From positions 124,001-188,000 of the forward strand of contig NZ_AEDD01000002.1 of assembly GCF_000179615.1 (NCBI RefSeq): 64,000 bases of DNA, given 5' to 3'. Below are positions 28,780 through 49,600 of this stretch, piece after piece. Origin of the DNA: Paenibacillus curdlanolyticus YK9 (GTDB lineage Bacteria > Bacillota > Bacilli > Paenibacillales > Paenibacillaceae). Numbering within the stretch: the stretch's first letter is position 1; each line of letters begins with the position of its first letter. The notes beneath the pieces were generated by a model. It saw nothing but the letters and a program-made list of their open reading frames with translations, was not told the DNA's origin and searched no databases. The translations under genes and the position numbers were made by a program.

Positions 28780-29077
28780 ATATGAAATGCGATGACGAGA
28801 CGAGTAAATAAATCGATTCTTTCACAGAGAGCTCCGTTTAGCTGAAAAGGGGCAAAGGGTTGTTTATTGAATAAAGACTCTGAGCAGCGCATCGGAACTG
28901 GTCCAAACCGGGGATGATGCGACAGGAGCTCCTGTTACAGAGCTAGAGTATAAGCATTACAGCGTAATGCAGTACTTGAAGAGGCTGATATGGCGACATA
29001 TGAGCGAATCTGGGGTGGTACCACGAGTATTCAAATCTCGTCCCTAAGACAATTGTCTTGGGGGTGGGATTTTTTTG
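28780..29077 (+). ncRNA. T-box riboswitch leader of asd (specifier read as AAA, lysine)
   Basis: About 300 nt of leader. Stem I starts CGATGACGAG and closes with GCATCG near 28891. The specifier loop has AGTA (28803-28806) opposite GAA-T-AAA (28869-28875). By the usual GAA-N-codon layout the specifier is AAA (28873-28875), lysine. The T-box core is GGTGGTACCACG (29014-29025). Its TGGT would pair with a tRNA whose discriminator is A, which fits tRNA-Lys and argues against Asn or Asp. A terminator (CCTAAGACAATTGTCTTGGG and a T run, about 29041-29077) follows. The T-box class is secure; the amino acid is my reading of the loop. Confidence 0.85.
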
Positions 29078-43689: not shown

Positions 43690-43709
43690 ATCACAGTTAC
43701 GTCGGCTGG

Positions 43710-43738
43710 TTGAAATCATCGAAAGAGCGTGGTATGAT
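43710..43738 (+). promoter_or_regulatory. Strong sigma-A promoter of the ABC-F gene
   Basis: TTGAAA (43710-43715), 17-base spacer, TATGAT (43733-43738). It lies about 260 bases ahead of the ABC-F start codon, so it leaves a long untranslated leader. Confidence 0.8.
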
Positions 43739-43744
43739 ACACCT

Positions 43745-43975
43745 AATTTCCAGATTGGAGTGAAGTGGAACATGTAAGATACTTTCTTGCTGACGTATAA
43801 ATCAATAAAACAGCATATGCGTGGTTTGTTTGCGCATGTTTTATTTTTTATATGCAAGAAAGTTACGACATTTTCCAAACTCAATCCATATATCCTTATC
43901 TGTCTCCGCTAGGGGGCTGGATTTGCTGTTATATTTATTTGAGCTACGAGAAAGTAACTTTCTTGCAGCTCTTAT
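43745..43975 (+). promoter_or_regulatory. Antibiotic-type attenuator leader with alternative stems
   Basis: Three copies of one 10-base sequence build a switch: ACTTTCTTGC at 43781-43790 (A), its complement GCAAGAAAGT at 43854-43863 (B), and ACTTTCTTGC again at 43957-43966 (C). Terminator 1 (43805-43848: ATAAAAC and ATGCG with CGCAT and GTTTTAT, then T residues) lies between A and B. Terminator 2 (43941-43978: GAGCT and AGAAAGT with ACTTTCT and AGCTC, then TTATTTTTA) uses C. A:B pairing leaves terminator 2 free; B:C pairing breaks it. This is the layout of drug-induced attenuators ahead of ABC-F and Erm genes. Confidence 0.75.
43772..43777 (+). other. Start-stop upstream ORF (ATG TAA) in the ABC-F leader
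   Basis: ATG followed at once by TAA, preceded by GGAGTG (43757-43762) at normal spacing. A ribosome held here would cover attenuator arm A (43781-43790), 3 bases downstream of the stop codon. A minimal uORF would sense slowed initiation or termination rather than a particular peptide. Confidence 0.6.
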
Positions 43976-44000
43976 TTTTATTTCAGGGGGATAACCATAT

Positions 44001-45479
44001 ATGTCATTAATTAATGTAACAAACCTAACGTTCGCCTACGACGGCAGCTATGACAACATATTCGAGGACGTGAGCTTTCAGCTCGATACCGATTGGAAAT
44101 TAGGCTTCACGGGCCGCAACGGACGAGGGAAGACGACGTTTCTCAATTTGCTGCAAGGGAAATATGAATTTCAAGGTACGATTTCAGCCAATGTCAGCTT
44201 TGAGTATTTTCCATTCCAAATCGAGGACAGAGCCAAGCTTACGGAGCACATTGTCAGCGACATTGTGCCAGACTACTTGCATTGGATGTTAATGCGCGAG
44301 CTTTCGCTGCTTAAGGTGTCGGAGGATGTGCTGTACCGGCCCTTCGATTCGCTATCCAATGGCGAGCAGACGAAGGTGATGCTAGCCGCCTTATTTTTGA
44401 AGGAAAACAGCTTTCTCTTGATCGATGAACCGACTAACCATCTAGATATTCATGCGAGAAAAATCGTTAGTCAATATCTCAATTCCAAGAGCGGATTTAT
44501 TCTTGTTTCGCATGACCGGGCTTTCCTGGACCGATGCGTCGATCACATTCTGTCCATCAACAAAACGAACATCGACATTCAGCGCGGGAATTTTTCTGAC
44601 TGGTGGGAAAATAAACAGAGGCAAGACAACTACGAGCTGGCGGAGAACGAGAAGCTGAAAAAAGACGTCAAGCGCTTATCTGAGGCAGCCAAGCGAACGA
44701 GCAATTGGTCCGACGAAGTGGAGAAAACGAAGAACGGGACTCGGAATTCGGGTTCGAAGGTCGATAAAGGCTACGTTGGCCATAAGGCTGCCAAAATGAT
44801 GAAACGCTCCAAATCGATCGAACAGCGGCAGCAATCCGCGATTGATGAGAAGTCGCAGCTGCTTAGAAATGTCGAGAAGGCCGATCAGCTGAAAATAAAA
44901 CAGCTTCCGTATCATAATCGGCTGCTAGCCGAGTTCGACCATGTATCGATTTATTACGGCGAGAAAAAGGTTACCTCCGATTTAACCTTTACGATTGAGC
45001 AGGGCGAACGGATCGCGCTCTCGGGCCAGAATGGCTCTGGCAAATCAAGCATTATCAAGCTTTTATGCGGCGAGGATATCCCACATACGGGCACGCTCAG
45101 AAAGGGAAGCCAGCTGAAAATATCGTATGTGTCGCAAGACACCTCGCATCTGCAGGGTAATTTAACAGATTATGCGCGAGCGCATGGCATTGACGAGAGC
45201 CTCTTTAAATCGATTCTAAGGAAGTTAGACTTTGCTAGGGTGCAATTTGAGAAGGATATTGCATCCTTCAGCGGCGGGCAGAAGAAGAAGGTGCTGCTAG
45301 CAAAAAGCCTCTGCGAGTCTGCGCACCTGCATATTTGGGACGAACCGCTTAATTTTATTGATGTGATCTCCCGAATGCAGATTGAAGAGCTGCTGCTCGA
45401 ATACGCGCCAACCATTCTGTTTGTGGAGCATGATAGCGAGTTTTGCAAAAATATTGCTACTAAAGTTGTTAATCTATAA
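44001..45479 (+). CDS. Lsa-type ABC-F ribosomal protection protein
   Basis: A 492-residue soluble protein with two ATPase domains and no membrane segment. Domain 1 has GRNGRGKT, LSNGEQTK and LLIDEPTNHLD; domain 2 has GQNGSGKS, FSGGQKKK and a shifted HIWDEPLNFID. The linker between them (about residues 195-300) is helical and charged (the antibiotic-resistance-domain region). The start MSLINVTNLTFAYDGSYDNIFE is characteristic of the Lsa family, which displaces lincosamides, streptogramin A and pleuromutilins from the ribosome. CAGGGGG precedes the ATG. It is controlled by the attenuator leader upstream. The spectrum cannot be read from sequence. Confidence 0.9.
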   Translation: MSLINVTNLTFAYDGSYDNIFEDVSFQLDTDWKLGFTGRNGRGKTTFLNLLQGKYEFQGTISANVSFEYFPFQIEDRAKLTEHIVSDIVPDYLHWMLMRELSLLKVSEDVLYRPFDSLSNGEQTKVMLAALFLKENSFLLIDEPTNHLDIHARKIVSQYLNSKSGFILVSHDRAFLDRCVDHILSINKTNIDIQRGNFSDWWENKQRQDNYELAENEKLKKDVKRLSEAAKRTSNWSDEVEKTKNGTRNSGSKVDKGYVGHKAAKMMKRSKSIEQRQQSAIDEKSQLLRNVEKADQLKIKQLPYHNRLLAEFDHVSIYYGEKKVTSDLTFTIEQGERIALSGQNGSGKSSIIKLLCGEDIPHTGTLRKGSQLKISYVSQDTSHLQGNLTDYARAHGIDESLFKSILRKLDFARVQFEKDIASFSGGQKKKVLLAKSLCESAHLHIWDEPLNFIDVISRMQIEELLLEYAPTILFVEHDSEFCKNIATKVVNL

Positions 45480-45697: not shown

Positions 45698-45721
45698 AAT
45701 AGCGCAAACGTTTGCGCTATT
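45698..45721. promoter_or_regulatory. 24-bp perfect palindrome in the P1 leader (LacI/CcpA-like operator)
   Basis: A perfect 24-bp palindrome with the core GCGCAAACGTTTGCGC. The central CG with flanking AAA/TTT is typical of LacI-family (including CcpA cre-like) operators. It lies about 112 bases downstream of the -10 and 60 bases before the coding region, so it would block elongation or act as an RNA hairpin. A shorter version (GCAAACGTTTGC) occurs in leader 2. Confidence 0.7.
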
Positions 45722-45780
45722 TTGGATTGATTACGATTACAGACACGAGCAACATGAATTGGCTAAAAGGAGGAGCAGCA

Positions 45781-46899
45781 ATGATGATCAAAACGGAAGG
45801 GCCTTCCGTTAATATTCCCAGCTATGTGTACTGCTTGATTCCTTATATTCACGAGAAGTTAAAGTCGGAAGGATCGGCGAGCGCAATAAGCTTAATGTCG
45901 AATTTGGATCTTGCCGCACTGCCTGCTTACGTTCGCGGAGCGACTTTTGAGTCGGCGAGGACAGACTTTCACATCAAAGGTATTTTCGGTTTCGATTCAT
46001 TTACGAACCTAATGAAGCTCGAATTGATTGAACATCATTACGATTCGTTTGAGTCAGGGCTTGCTAGCATCAATCGTTCGTTTGCAGAGGGGAAAGCCGT
46101 TATTTTGAGCGGAAGCTCCTATCATTTGCCCTATTTTTCCGATTATCATAATCCGTGGTTCATCGATAATTTTGGTTACACCATTAACTCGACGATGTAT
46201 ATTGTTGGAAACCACTGGTTTTCGGTGTATGGGATCGATGAATCCGGCGTTCGCATTTATGATCCTATTCCTAGCAAATTTGCCGGAACGATTCCGATGG
46301 AGGACTTTCGACTCGCATGGGGAGGCAATGGGCTAATCGCCGAGCTAGCTCATAAGAAGGATATTGAAAAGTGTAAGGCCTACGGTCAGCTCAATGTGGG
46401 CGTTGGCCATATTTTCGACCAAACCGAACTGAACGATCTCTTCCTAAGTACGGCCATCACGACGGCAAGCCTCTATTTGAAAGGTGACAAATTTAACTTA
46501 GAGGCGGAGCACTGCTGGTTCGGGCATGCGGCGTTAGCGGAATTTATCTCTGATCTGGAACAGTTAGCTGGCGATAATCGACACGTGCAGCGGATTGAAG
46601 GATGCTTATACTCGATGCGGGTTAACCGGTACCAGATCGGTGATTTGCTGCATGATATGAGGAAACTAGGTCTGATTCCACAAAATATACTAGATGCGTA
46701 TCTGCCGCTTCACAGGAAATGGGAAACGACCTATAACGCTTTTGCGATTAATATGGCTCGGAAGAAGGACGACTTGATTGAACGGACGATCGTGCTTCTG
46801 AAGGAGGCACTAGACATGGAGAAGCATTTGTTTACGCTTCTGTACCGTTATCTTAAGGGAACGCCATTCCTAGCGCGCTCGGCGGGAAGAGGAGAATAA
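45781..46899 (+). CDS. BtrH/AsbE-like acyltransferase, copy 1
   Basis: A 372-residue protein with a C39-peptidase-like N-terminal half. The candidate triad is Cys18 (YVYCLIPY), His145 (GNHWFSVYGID) and Asp161 (YDPIP). The fold resembles BtrH of butirosin synthesis, which moves an acyl group from a carrier protein to an amine, and AsbE of petrobactin synthesis. The C-terminal half is helical and may bind the carrier. The ATG at 45781 follows AAAGGAGGAGC. It is close to the protein at 47221-48342 over its whole length, including the ends. It has its own promoter and terminator, so it is transcribed apart from the main operon. The function is inferred. Confidence 0.7.
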   Translation: MMIKTEGPSVNIPSYVYCLIPYIHEKLKSEGSASAISLMSNLDLAALPAYVRGATFESARTDFHIKGIFGFDSFTNLMKLELIEHHYDSFESGLASINRSFAEGKAVILSGSSYHLPYFSDYHNPWFIDNFGYTINSTMYIVGNHWFSVYGIDESGVRIYDPIPSKFAGTIPMEDFRLAWGGNGLIAELAHKKDIEKCKAYGQLNVGVGHIFDQTELNDLFLSTAITTASLYLKGDKFNLEAEHCWFGHAALAEFISDLEQLAGDNRHVQRIEGCLYSMRVNRYQIGDLLHDMRKLGLIPQNILDAYLPLHRKWETTYNAFAINMARKKDDLIERTIVLLKEALDMEKHLFTLLYRYLKGTPFLARSAGRGE

Positions 46900-47149: not shown

Positions 47150-47220
47150 GCGTTTAATGGTATGAAATTGCTCTTGAAAAGCACATAAGCTATGCCATTT
47201 TGAGAAGAGGAGGAGCAATA

Positions 47221-48342
47221 TTGATCGAAACGCAAGAGCTTACCGTGGATATTCCTAGCTATGTGTACTGCCTAATTCCATATATCCATGCAAAGCTAAA
47301 GTCAGAGGGCTCCGCAAGCGCAATCAGCTTATTATCCAATCTGGATTTGGCAGGATTGCCTGCTTATACGCGGGGCGAATCGTTTGACTCGGCGAGAATC
47401 GATTTTCACATCAAGGATATCCACGGCTTCGAGCGGTCAACGAACATCTTGAAGCTCGATATGCATGAGCATAAGCATGATACGTTTGAAGCTGGGCTTG
47501 CAAGCATCAGTCAGACGTTAGCGGAAGGAAAAGCGGTTGTTTTGAGCGGGACCACCTACTGTTTGCCTTATTCATCCGAATATTATAACCCTTCGTTTAT
47601 TGAGACGTTTGGTTATGGGGTCAATGCGACCATGTATATCGTTGGCGATCACTGGTTTTCCGTATATGGAATCGACGAGACGGGCGTTCGAATCTATGAT
47701 CCGATTCCAAACAAATTTACGGGAACGATTCCGTTAGAGGATTTTCGGCATGCATGGGGAGGCAATGCCCTCGTGCCTGAGCTAGCAGATAAGAAGGATG
47801 TCGAAAAATGTACGATTTATGGCCAGCTTGATATTCATGTCGGCCATATTTTCAGCCAAGCTGAGCTCAACGATCTGTTCTTGCGTACGGCCAATACGAT
47901 TACGACTCTTTATTTGAAGGGCGAAAGCTTTAACTTAGGGGAAGAACGATGCTGGTTCGGGCATGCGGCGGTAACGACGTTTATGCATGATTTGGAGCAA
48001 TTCGCAGGCCAAGCTATTCCAGCTGAACGGATTGAAGGCTGCCTCTACTTCATGCGAGTCAATCGCCTGCAAATGGGCGTGCTGCTTACGGATATGAGGG
48101 AGCTTGCGCTCATTCCGCAGGATATCATGGATGCCTATTTGCCACTGCAACGAAAATGGGAGACGATCTATAATTCCTTCGTCATTAATGTAGCGCGTAA
48201 AAGAGCCGATGTCGTTGAACGGACGATCGCATTTTTGAAGGAAGCGCTCGATTTGGAGATGCACTTGTTTATGCGCTTGCAGCTTCATTTGAACGGCACG
48301 CCGCTGCTAGACCGTGCTCCGGCGATAGGGGCAGCAGACTAA
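47221..48342 (+). CDS. BtrH/AsbE-like acyltransferase, copy 2
   Basis: A 373-residue paralog of copy 1 with the same candidate triad: Cys17 (YVYCLIPY), His144 (GDHWFSVYGID) and Asp160 (YDPIP). The TTG at 47221 follows GAGGAGG and aligns with the copy 1 start. It is the first gene of the eleven-gene operon, and the AsbC-like ligase starts one base after its stop. The two copies differ most in the middle third and at the C-terminus, so they may use different acyl groups or acceptors. Acyl transfer from a carrier protein is inferred from fold and context. Confidence 0.7.
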   Translation: MIETQELTVDIPSYVYCLIPYIHAKLKSEGSASAISLLSNLDLAGLPAYTRGESFDSARIDFHIKDIHGFERSTNILKLDMHEHKHDTFEAGLASISQTLAEGKAVVLSGTTYCLPYSSEYYNPSFIETFGYGVNATMYIVGDHWFSVYGIDETGVRIYDPIPNKFTGTIPLEDFRHAWGGNALVPELADKKDVEKCTIYGQLDIHVGHIFSQAELNDLFLRTANTITTLYLKGESFNLGEERCWFGHAAVTTFMHDLEQFAGQAIPAERIEGCLYFMRVNRLQMGVLLTDMRELALIPQDIMDAYLPLQRKWETIYNSFVINVARKRADVVERTIAFLKEALDLEMHLFMRLQLHLNGTPLLDRAPAIGAAD

Positions 48343-48343
48343 T

Positions 48344-49600
48344 ATGTTCATCGTCGACAAAGAACGTTATGACAAAAGCATGCTGGCGCAAAGGCACGAG
48401 GAGCTGGCCAAGCTTCCTCATTTCTCAGCTCCGGAGACGAAGCTGTATGCGATCTGTTTCACGCACCCGTTCGATGTACTCAGTACGGTCCTATACTTAC
48501 GCGAGCGCGGGGGCTCCGTGCTGCTGCTTCATGGGGAAACGCCGTTCGAAGCGGCGCTATCGCTAGCGAATCGTGCTGGCTGTAACGTTCTGCTCCATAC
48601 GAATTGGCGGGAGGCTGTGGTCGTGAGCAAGCCGCAATATGTTGGCGAGCCGTCCTTATGCCAGTTCAGCTCCGGAACGACGGGCGAACCCAAATTAATT
48701 GCGAGACCGTGGCGCGAGGTAGAGCGGGAAATCGAATCGTATAACCTCCGGCTTCAGGCAACGCCCGATGAGCAGCCGATTATTCTCGTACCGGTATCGC
48801 ATTCGTTCGGACTCGTTGCCGGCACGCTTACCGCGCTTGCCAGAGGCGTTGAGCCGATCATCGTCGCGGACAAAAACCCGAAATTTGCGCTTCATTTGTT
48901 GAAAGCTGCCGGACCTTCGATTTTGTACGCGGTGCCGTTTTTGCTGCATCTTATCCAAACGCTTGGCCGAAAGGAGCTTCGCCTCCATAAGCTCATAAGC
49001 TCCGGCGCTCCAATGAGCGAAGCTTTGCTTCACCGTCTGCAAGCTTGCACCGAGCAGGTTTGGCAGCAATACGGTTGTACCGAGGCCGGCTGCATCTCGC
49101 TCGGATCGGATCCGTCTTCGCCTTATGATGTTGGGCAGGTGCTCCCGCATTTGCAAATCGCGCTGCACGAAACCGCTTTAGCGGAAGGTTCGGCGGCGAA
49201 GGAAATCGTCGTATCCACTGGCGATAAATTGATCCATACGCAGGACCTCGGCATGCTGAACCCGCAAGGCAGAATCCAAGTTTTCGGTCGAATGGATGAC
49301 TTGATTAATGTCTCGGGACTTAAAGTGCTGCCATCCGAAGTAGAAGCAGTCATCGAACGACTATCCGGCGTGTCGGAGGTTGTCGTCTGTAAGGCGCGGC
49401 ATCCGGTATGGGGCGAGTCGATTCGAGCGCTTGTCGTTGCCTCGGAGGGGGTAGGGAAAGAAGAAATTAAAGCGTGGTGTTTGCTGCATTTGCCGCCGTT
49501 TAAAGTACCGAGCATCATCGATTTGGTTACATCCATTCCTCGGCTGCCGTCAGGCAAAATAAGCCGAAAATTTATCCAAGAACAGGAGATATCGTCATGA
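48344..49600 (+). CDS. AsbC-like 3,4-dihydroxybenzoyl-AMP ligase
   Basis: A 418-residue adenylate-forming ligase, short for this superfamily but close to the roughly 410 residues of AsbC. Phosphate-loop motif FSSGTTGEPKLIARPW, then PVSHSFGLVAGTLTAL, QQYGCTEAGCISL (A5-like) and the C-terminal hinge GRMDDLINVSGLKVLPSEVE, with the catalytic Lys in LPSGKISRKF. Much of the chain matches what I remember of B. anthracis AsbC, which activates 3,4-dihydroxybenzoate and loads it on AsbD. The likely acceptor is the carrier encoded next, whose ATG overlaps this stop codon (ATGA). Aromatic specificity is inferred. Confidence 0.8.
   Translation: MFIVDKERYDKSMLAQRHEELAKLPHFSAPETKLYAICFTHPFDVLSTVLYLRERGGSVLLLHGETPFEAALSLANRAGCNVLLHTNWREAVVVSKPQYVGEPSLCQFSSGTTGEPKLIARPWREVEREIESYNLRLQATPDEQPIILVPVSHSFGLVAGTLTALARGVEPIIVADKNPKFALHLLKAAGPSILYAVPFLLHLIQTLGRKELRLHKLISSGAPMSEALLHRLQACTEQVWQQYGCTEAGCISLGSDPSSPYDVGQVLPHLQIALHETALAEGSAAKEIVVSTGDKLIHTQDLGMLNPQGRIQVFGRMDDLINVSGLKVLPSEVEAVIERLSGVSEVVVCKARHPVWGESIRALVVASEGVGKEEIKAWCLLHLPPFKVPSIIDLVTSIPRLPSGKISRKFIQEQEISS

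Follow-up and report, generated by a model that had tools for sequence, protein, structure and literature searches.

The question raised by this locus is how an antibiotic resistance gene could be controlled by a reading frame made only of a start codon and a stop codon. The locus lies in the window, the 64,000-nt stretch of Paenibacillus curdlanolyticus YK9 DNA that was analyzed (contig NZ_AEDD01000002.1, positions 124,001 to 188,000, in a genome of 5.4 Mb). The gene encodes an ABC-F protein that scores 759.1 bits against NCBIfam NF000167, above the curated cut-off of 750 for this Lsa family. Its nearest solved structure is Lsa(A) (7nhk, E 3e-131). Attenuation by upstream open reading frames (uORFs) is established for ARE-ABC-F genes, including vmlR, cplR, vga(A), and are5sc (PMC9226507, PMC10201436, PMC12421871). 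The window leader likewise holds a short uORF with a ribosome binding site. This uORF is not of the erm or msrD stalling-peptide type, as it codes for nothing past fMet, and it is not the three-codon, MIN-like uORF of a vmlR-type leader, as it reads ATG-TAA.

The features of the leader are collected in Table 1. The leader has a predicted minimum free energy of -80.7 kcal/mol, compared to -54.5 +/- 4.6 in shuffled sequences (z -5.75), and the 64-kb window holds just one pair of arms A and B at the leader spacing, with none in 100 shuffled windows. The original prediction placed an ATG-TAA reading frame with a ribosome binding site here, and both are present, the latter as an SD-like GGAG-TGA. 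It also described three arms that complement one another. Arms A and C share one sequence, to which B is exactly complementary, so this description holds for A:B and B:C but not for A and C. The full B:C pairing comprises 14 bp without a mismatch (43853-43866 with 43954-43967), and the A:B stem is longer than first described, also taking in the start codon of the uORF and some of its ribosome binding site. The strong promoter of that prediction has a counterpart in a promoter-like TTGAAA-17-TATGAT site, but a single such match is at chance level on consensus alone. A TTGAAA/TTGCAA...TATGATA-like element is found at the equivalent place in the relatives inspected. No Rfam covariance model matched the leader region 43690-44010 up to an E value of 1. 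An inverted repeat (43887-43900 and 43990-44003) is in line with the partial pairing predicted between the ABC-F gene Shine-Dalgarno sequence (SD) and upstream bases.

Table 1. Features of the leader and the ABC-F gene, in window coordinates
Feature	Position	Strand	Remarks
Promoter-like site TTGAAA, 17 nt, TATGAT with TG extension	43710..43738	+	consensus match
uORF Shine-Dalgarno GGAG-TGA (family form GGRGNTGA)	43757..43763	+	125/126 start-stop leaders
Start-stop uORF ATG-TAA	43772..43777	+	start 43772-43774, stop 43775-43777; 126/190 distinct leaders
Arm A (ACTTTCTTGC)	43781..43790	+	end 19 nt from start-codon A; family mode 16
Hairpin in the A:B loop ("terminator 1")	43804..43845	+	weak, AU-rich
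Arm B (TGCAAGAAAGTTAC)	43853..43866 (core 43854-43863)	+	partner A (OFF) or C (ON)
B extension, OFF-state partner of the uORF start codon and upstream bases	43868..43877	+	folding
CTCAA, antiterminator partner of TTGAG 43939-43943	43880..43884	+	97.7% of cells paired in 60 relatives; forms in masked fold
Hairpin P3, between B and terminator 2	43898..43922	+	covariation: both-sided changes in 6/9 pairs
Terminator 2: stem 43941-43971, U-rich tail 43972-43980	43941..43980	+	99.2% of cells paired; 2 compensatory pairs
Arm C (GTAACTTTCTTGCA), terminator 2 loop and 3' half	43954..43967 (core 43957-43966)	+	complement of B
ABC-F gene Shine-Dalgarno GGGGG	43986..43990	+	partly paired with upstream sequence (predicted)
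Lsa-family (ARE3) ABC-F ribosomal protection protein, 492 aa	44001..45479	+	NCBIfam NF000167; Lsa(A) 7nhk

Two terminators had been proposed. Terminator 2, with a local fold of -15.7 kcal/mol in the window, is conserved and covarying, but the upstream hairpin is not supported as a terminator. A stable hairpin is retained in the A:B loop in 166 of 167 relatives, while its U-rich tail is present in only 83 of 167. The presence of the tail in only about half of the relatives makes a terminator function doubtful, and termination as its main function was rejected. This hairpin is likely a pause or scaffold hairpin.

Conservation separates these pairings into two groups. Among the compared loci, which were selected for having the arms, terminator 2 and P3 together are paired in 94.4% of cells with 8 pairs changed on both sides, and their covariation score of 0.258 compares with 0.12 or less for slid versions. 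The B:C antiterminator is paired in 99.7% of cells and is almost invariant, and the A:B pairs are also nearly invariant among relatives, so covariation speaks neither for nor against these two pairings. A B arm obliged to pair with A as well as with C would leave the arms invariant, but their invariance does not count as positive evidence of this double pairing. In the OFF fold, the uORF SD is largely paired (median 0.87), as is, to a lesser extent, the start codon (0.64).

The proposed switch was examined in silico using ViennaRNA, where each leader was folded free or with a ribosome footprint from -14 to +16 of the start codon held single-stranded; the folding is at equilibrium and not co-transcriptional. 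Across 166 loci, the footprint mask lowered the median pairing of terminator 2 from 0.990 to 0.001 and raised that of B:C from 0.000 to 0.986, while a control mask of similar length in the loop produced no change. The mask flipped 111 of 113 start-stop leaders and 38 of 53 leaders with other uORFs. In the window leader, the masked minimum free energy structure consists of the B:C antiterminator, which encloses CTCAA:TTGAG and P3, and the flip occurs once the 3' edge of the mask passes +11 to +14. This range falls inside the toeprint at +16 reported for vmlR (PMC9226507). Fold prediction and conservation thus agree on a terminator and an antiterminator that exclude each other, and on an anti-antiterminator containing the uORF. 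The original prediction that a ribosome on the start-stop codons masks A, lets B pair with C, and abolishes terminator 2 is supported by these folds and by the comparative anatomy of the leaders. With or without the mask, the SD of the main gene is predicted to stay largely paired (median 0.81 and 0.82, respectively).

The uORF itself varies, and its position varies little. In total, 190 distinct leaders were classed, and a uORF was assigned in 184. The start-stop form is found in 126 of the 190, where codon 2 is TAA in 72, TAG in 39, and TGA in 15; a few of these leaders begin with GTG. Among the 184 assigned uORFs, ME occurs in 5 and MK in 3. The remaining uORFs are mostly 3-8 codons long (such as MDISC, MDFSC, MYISC, MD[SN]FLA), and those of distant Bacillota include MRNFSC, MRKLSC, MINLSC, and MYNFSC. 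Across relatives, mostly 0 to 7 sense codons follow the start. The nearest relative (L013) has ATG-TGG and an 8-codon uORF. A FastTree tree of 167 ABC-F proteins implies 21 changes of the start-stop state by parsimony, and no fewer than 5 when well-supported branches are relied on.

The distance from the start codon to the end of arm A is 15-20 nt in start-stop leaders, being 16 in 94 of 126, and is 15 or 18 nt for uORFs ending in SC. This is where the front edge of a ribosome held at the start codon would lie, and the distance agrees with the vmlR toeprint at +16 (PMC9226507). Among uORFs that are not start-stop and whose frame includes the codon directly after the arm, 30 of 34 end there, while start-stop leaders in their commonest frame have a stop triplet at that place in only 37 of 101. 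Together with the start-stop forms, this means that almost every uORF closes either right after its start codon or just past arm A. The SD form GGRGNTGA is present in 125 of 126 start-stop leaders, with N sometimes missing, as in the window, and it is complementary to an extended anti-SD with only N free. The spacing from GGAG to ATG is long, mostly 12 nt. A sensor that does not depend on a stalling peptide, as originally proposed, is supported by the occurrence of ME, MK, MDISC, MYNFSC, and MRNFSC at a nearly constant start position.

From sequence, conservation, geometry, and modeled folds, the leader is very probably a ribosome-controlled transcription attenuator of the Lsa-type ABC-F gene, with the start-stop uORF as its sensor. 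Ribosome occupancy, termination, and drug induction of the leader are steps that we infer. In the absence of drug, a ribosome starting at ATG-TAA would release fMet and depart, leaving A free to form a long stem with B, and this stem would close off the uORF as well. Terminator 2 would then fold and transcription would stop upstream of the ABC-F gene. A drug of the peptidyl transferase center (PTC), such as a lincosamide, pleuromutilin, or streptogramin A (the Lsa spectrum), would hold the ribosome at the start codon, where its footprint to about +16 would cover arm A. The free B would then pair with C and CTCAA with TTGAG, so that terminator 2 is barred and the gene is transcribed. Because nothing is translated past fMet, such a sensor would read the failure of the first step after initiation and not a stalling peptide. 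On a start-stop uORF, the step blocked would not be peptide bond formation but the freeing of fMet, which depends on a release factor. Classical assays measured fMet release with AUG plus UAA and reportedly found it inhibited by peptidyl transferase drugs. Since this is a release step with no sense codon after the start, the start-stop form should ignore amino acid starvation. The further proposal is that the start-stop uORF is a distinct sensor of release factor-dependent fMet release, which would report any PTC block, including termination inhibitors, would be blind to starvation, and would have been adopted as one module by Lsa-type ABC-F and Cfr genes across Paenibacillaceae and their relatives. 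The chances for and against this proposal are considered even.

Other readings of the leader can be weighed against this evidence. The attenuator may be real but the stop at codon 2 incidental, GUAA being kept only to pair with UUAC in an otherwise ordinary short-uORF attenuator. The GUAA of ATG-TAA does pair with UUAC in arm B, a pairing that wobble preserves for TAG and TGA, so that GUAA, GUAG, and GUGA are all accommodated and conservation of the stop could partly reflect pairing. The TGG in place of the stop in L013 and the many relatives with short uORFs of other kinds point the same way. However, 32 leaders with a start-to-arm distance other than 16 still have the stop right behind the start, and all 8 leaders that begin one codon further upstream (ME, MK) have it in frame. 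MDISC-type uORFs without GUAA also still close at the arm, at the 30 of 34 given above against 37 of 101 where the frame needs no stop. An incidental stop is therefore judged unlikely. The leader may instead sense initiation in general, such as 30S occupancy or ribosome supply, and not drugs. A 30S or 70S bound for any cause would mask arm A, and the amino acid sequence is irrelevant, as this reading would have it. Against this, initiation is frequent in ordinary growth, and a switch responding to occupancy only would presumably be always on. Moreover, the leader precedes two unrelated types of PTC-protecting genes, Lsa-type ABC-F and Cfr, making a general initiation sensor quite improbable.

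Control could also be mainly translational, through hiding and exposing the gene SD, with terminator 2 in a minor role. The vmlR and cplR systems combine transcriptional and translational layers, and the main SD is predicted to be largely paired. This pairing is constant across the switch, though, while terminator 2, which is conserved and covarying, changes, and mainly translational control is given only a slim chance. That the repeats are chance inverted repeats before a constitutive gene has in its favor the chance-level promoter match by itself. This reading has next to no probability given the z of -5.75 and the lack of the A and B pair in shuffles, and it is refuted by conservation of the leader in hundreds of genomes.

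The preferred reading, a drug-responsive attenuator with a start-stop sensor, has close counterparts. The B. subtilis vmlR leader (uORF Met-Ile-Asn; Takada et al. 2022, PMC9226507) likewise precedes a PLSA-resistance ABC-F gene. In both, the uORF lies within the anti-antiterminator stem, an intermediate hairpin is present, a stalled initiating ribosome frees the antiterminator (as proposed for the window leader), and there is little dependence on uORF sequence, which has been found to matter little in vmlR (PMC9226507). The vmlR leader differs in its three sense codons, its sequence, and its ARE2 ABC-F gene, whereas the window gene is Lsa (ARE3) and its leader family is mostly start-stop and common to cfr-like genes. 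C. difficile cplR (uORF MR[I/M]) and the LsaA uORF (MAGN) are also short and combine transcription and translation attenuation, and LsaA belongs to the protein family of the window gene; these uORFs differ in containing sense codons (PMC10201436). In Streptomyces are5sc and tiaA, toeprints placed the ribosomes stalled by LSAP drugs on the start codon of the uORF, and this stalling sets the antiterminator, but these systems are actinobacterial, with uORFs MLV and MVGDDDISG and unrelated sequence (PMC12421871). Outside bacteria, the AUG-stop minimum uORF of plant NIP5;1 also uses a start followed by a stop as a regulatory sensor, but it is eukaryotic, responds to boron, and does not involve transcription termination. 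The plant AUG-stop uORF acts through stalling, reinitiation, and mRNA decay. The start-stop sites of E. coli were reportedly first published by Meydan in 2019. Ribosome profiling start-stop sites in E. coli and C. jejuni are translated two-codon ORFs in bacteria, as proposed here, though an antibiotic-responsive switch is not described for them in PMC11955535. A literature search, thin on subscription papers, returned no start-stop antibiotic attenuator and none common to lsa and cfr; relative to known ABC-F attenuation, a conserved start-stop sensor common to both types of gene is what was not found in the literature searched.

The leader is widespread. A covariance model spanning arm B through terminator 2, with the uORF left out, was built on 60 relatives. 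It matched 236 of 400 family genomes (14 of 19 genera), 165 of 300 order-level, 53 of 399 class-level, and 17 of 398 phylum-level genomes, samples that overlap in part. Most of 80 named ABC-F orthologues carry the leader, and 100 further leader loci were fetched beyond these. Six close orthologues or paralogues of the ABC-F gene (L020, L023, L034, L039, L055, L087) lack it, and some of these genomes have another ABC-F copy that does carry the leader (L080 vs L023; L086 vs L039). At another locus (L208), an ATG-TGG leader is followed directly after terminator 2 by an unrelated sequence resembling the start of a group II intron, and the ABC-F gene is absent from the stretch fetched.

The start-stop leader also precedes genes for Cfr-family 23S rRNA methyltransferases at 11 fetched loci (L154, L161, L163, L209, L219, L243, L244, L250, L252, L261, L268; the TIGR04432 assignment was tested at 2 of the 11). 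The in silico flip is clear at 10 of the 11 and weak at L252. Cfr and Lsa are known as families that share a role against PTC drugs. Both counter such drugs (PMC10201436), and a leader common to their genes is independent support for the proposed PTC-drug signal. A second conserved uORF of ~37 codons (e.g. MEIEVVDDYVNRFLLYEAVHKKTNRLPEGYQSIDRCT) lies after the cfr-like attenuator, perhaps with the exception of L261. It contains GCCGG[AG]G, complementary to CTCCGGC beside the cfr Shine-Dalgarno sequence (TTCTCC...GGAGAA hairpin). Judged by its sequence, this uORF resembles a second attenuator, one acting at the level of translation.

The same leader, with a six-codon uORF (MYNFSC), is found before lsa(E) on an Enterococcus faecium plasmid (L280, approximately 301-570), and this gene is probably inducible in the same way, given its leader. 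The inducibility of this clinical gene is thus directly testable. The lnu(B) gene comes after lsa(E) in L280. No such leader was seen at lsa(B) (L281) or at the Enterococcus raffinosus relative. On a Paenibacillus urinalis plasmid from a human blood isolate (L283), an ATG-TGA leader precedes an Lsa-family ABC-F gene.

An antibiotic sensor of this kind would need little: a start codon, a stop codon, and the right spacing to an RNA arm. It joins ABC-F and Cfr resistance under one switch module, and the start-stop, ME/MK, MDISC, and MYNFSC forms on one scaffold are a natural series on what a stalled initiating ribosome requires. Start-stop sensors escape ORF annotation and three-codon uORF finders. 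The uORF4u tool, used to define several ARE-ABC-F uORFs, skips ORFs under three codons by default and would miss start-stop forms (PMC10219788). With such sensors overlooked, inducible resistance may be under-recognized.

Elsewhere in the window, the only Rfam match is a T-box leader at 28783-29048 (RF00230, 104.9 bits). Downstream of the ABC-F gene, a tandem pair of related ~390-aa proteins (45712-46899 and 47200-48342) resembles a duplicated biosynthetic gene and is followed by an acyl-CoA ligase-like protein (48344-49600).
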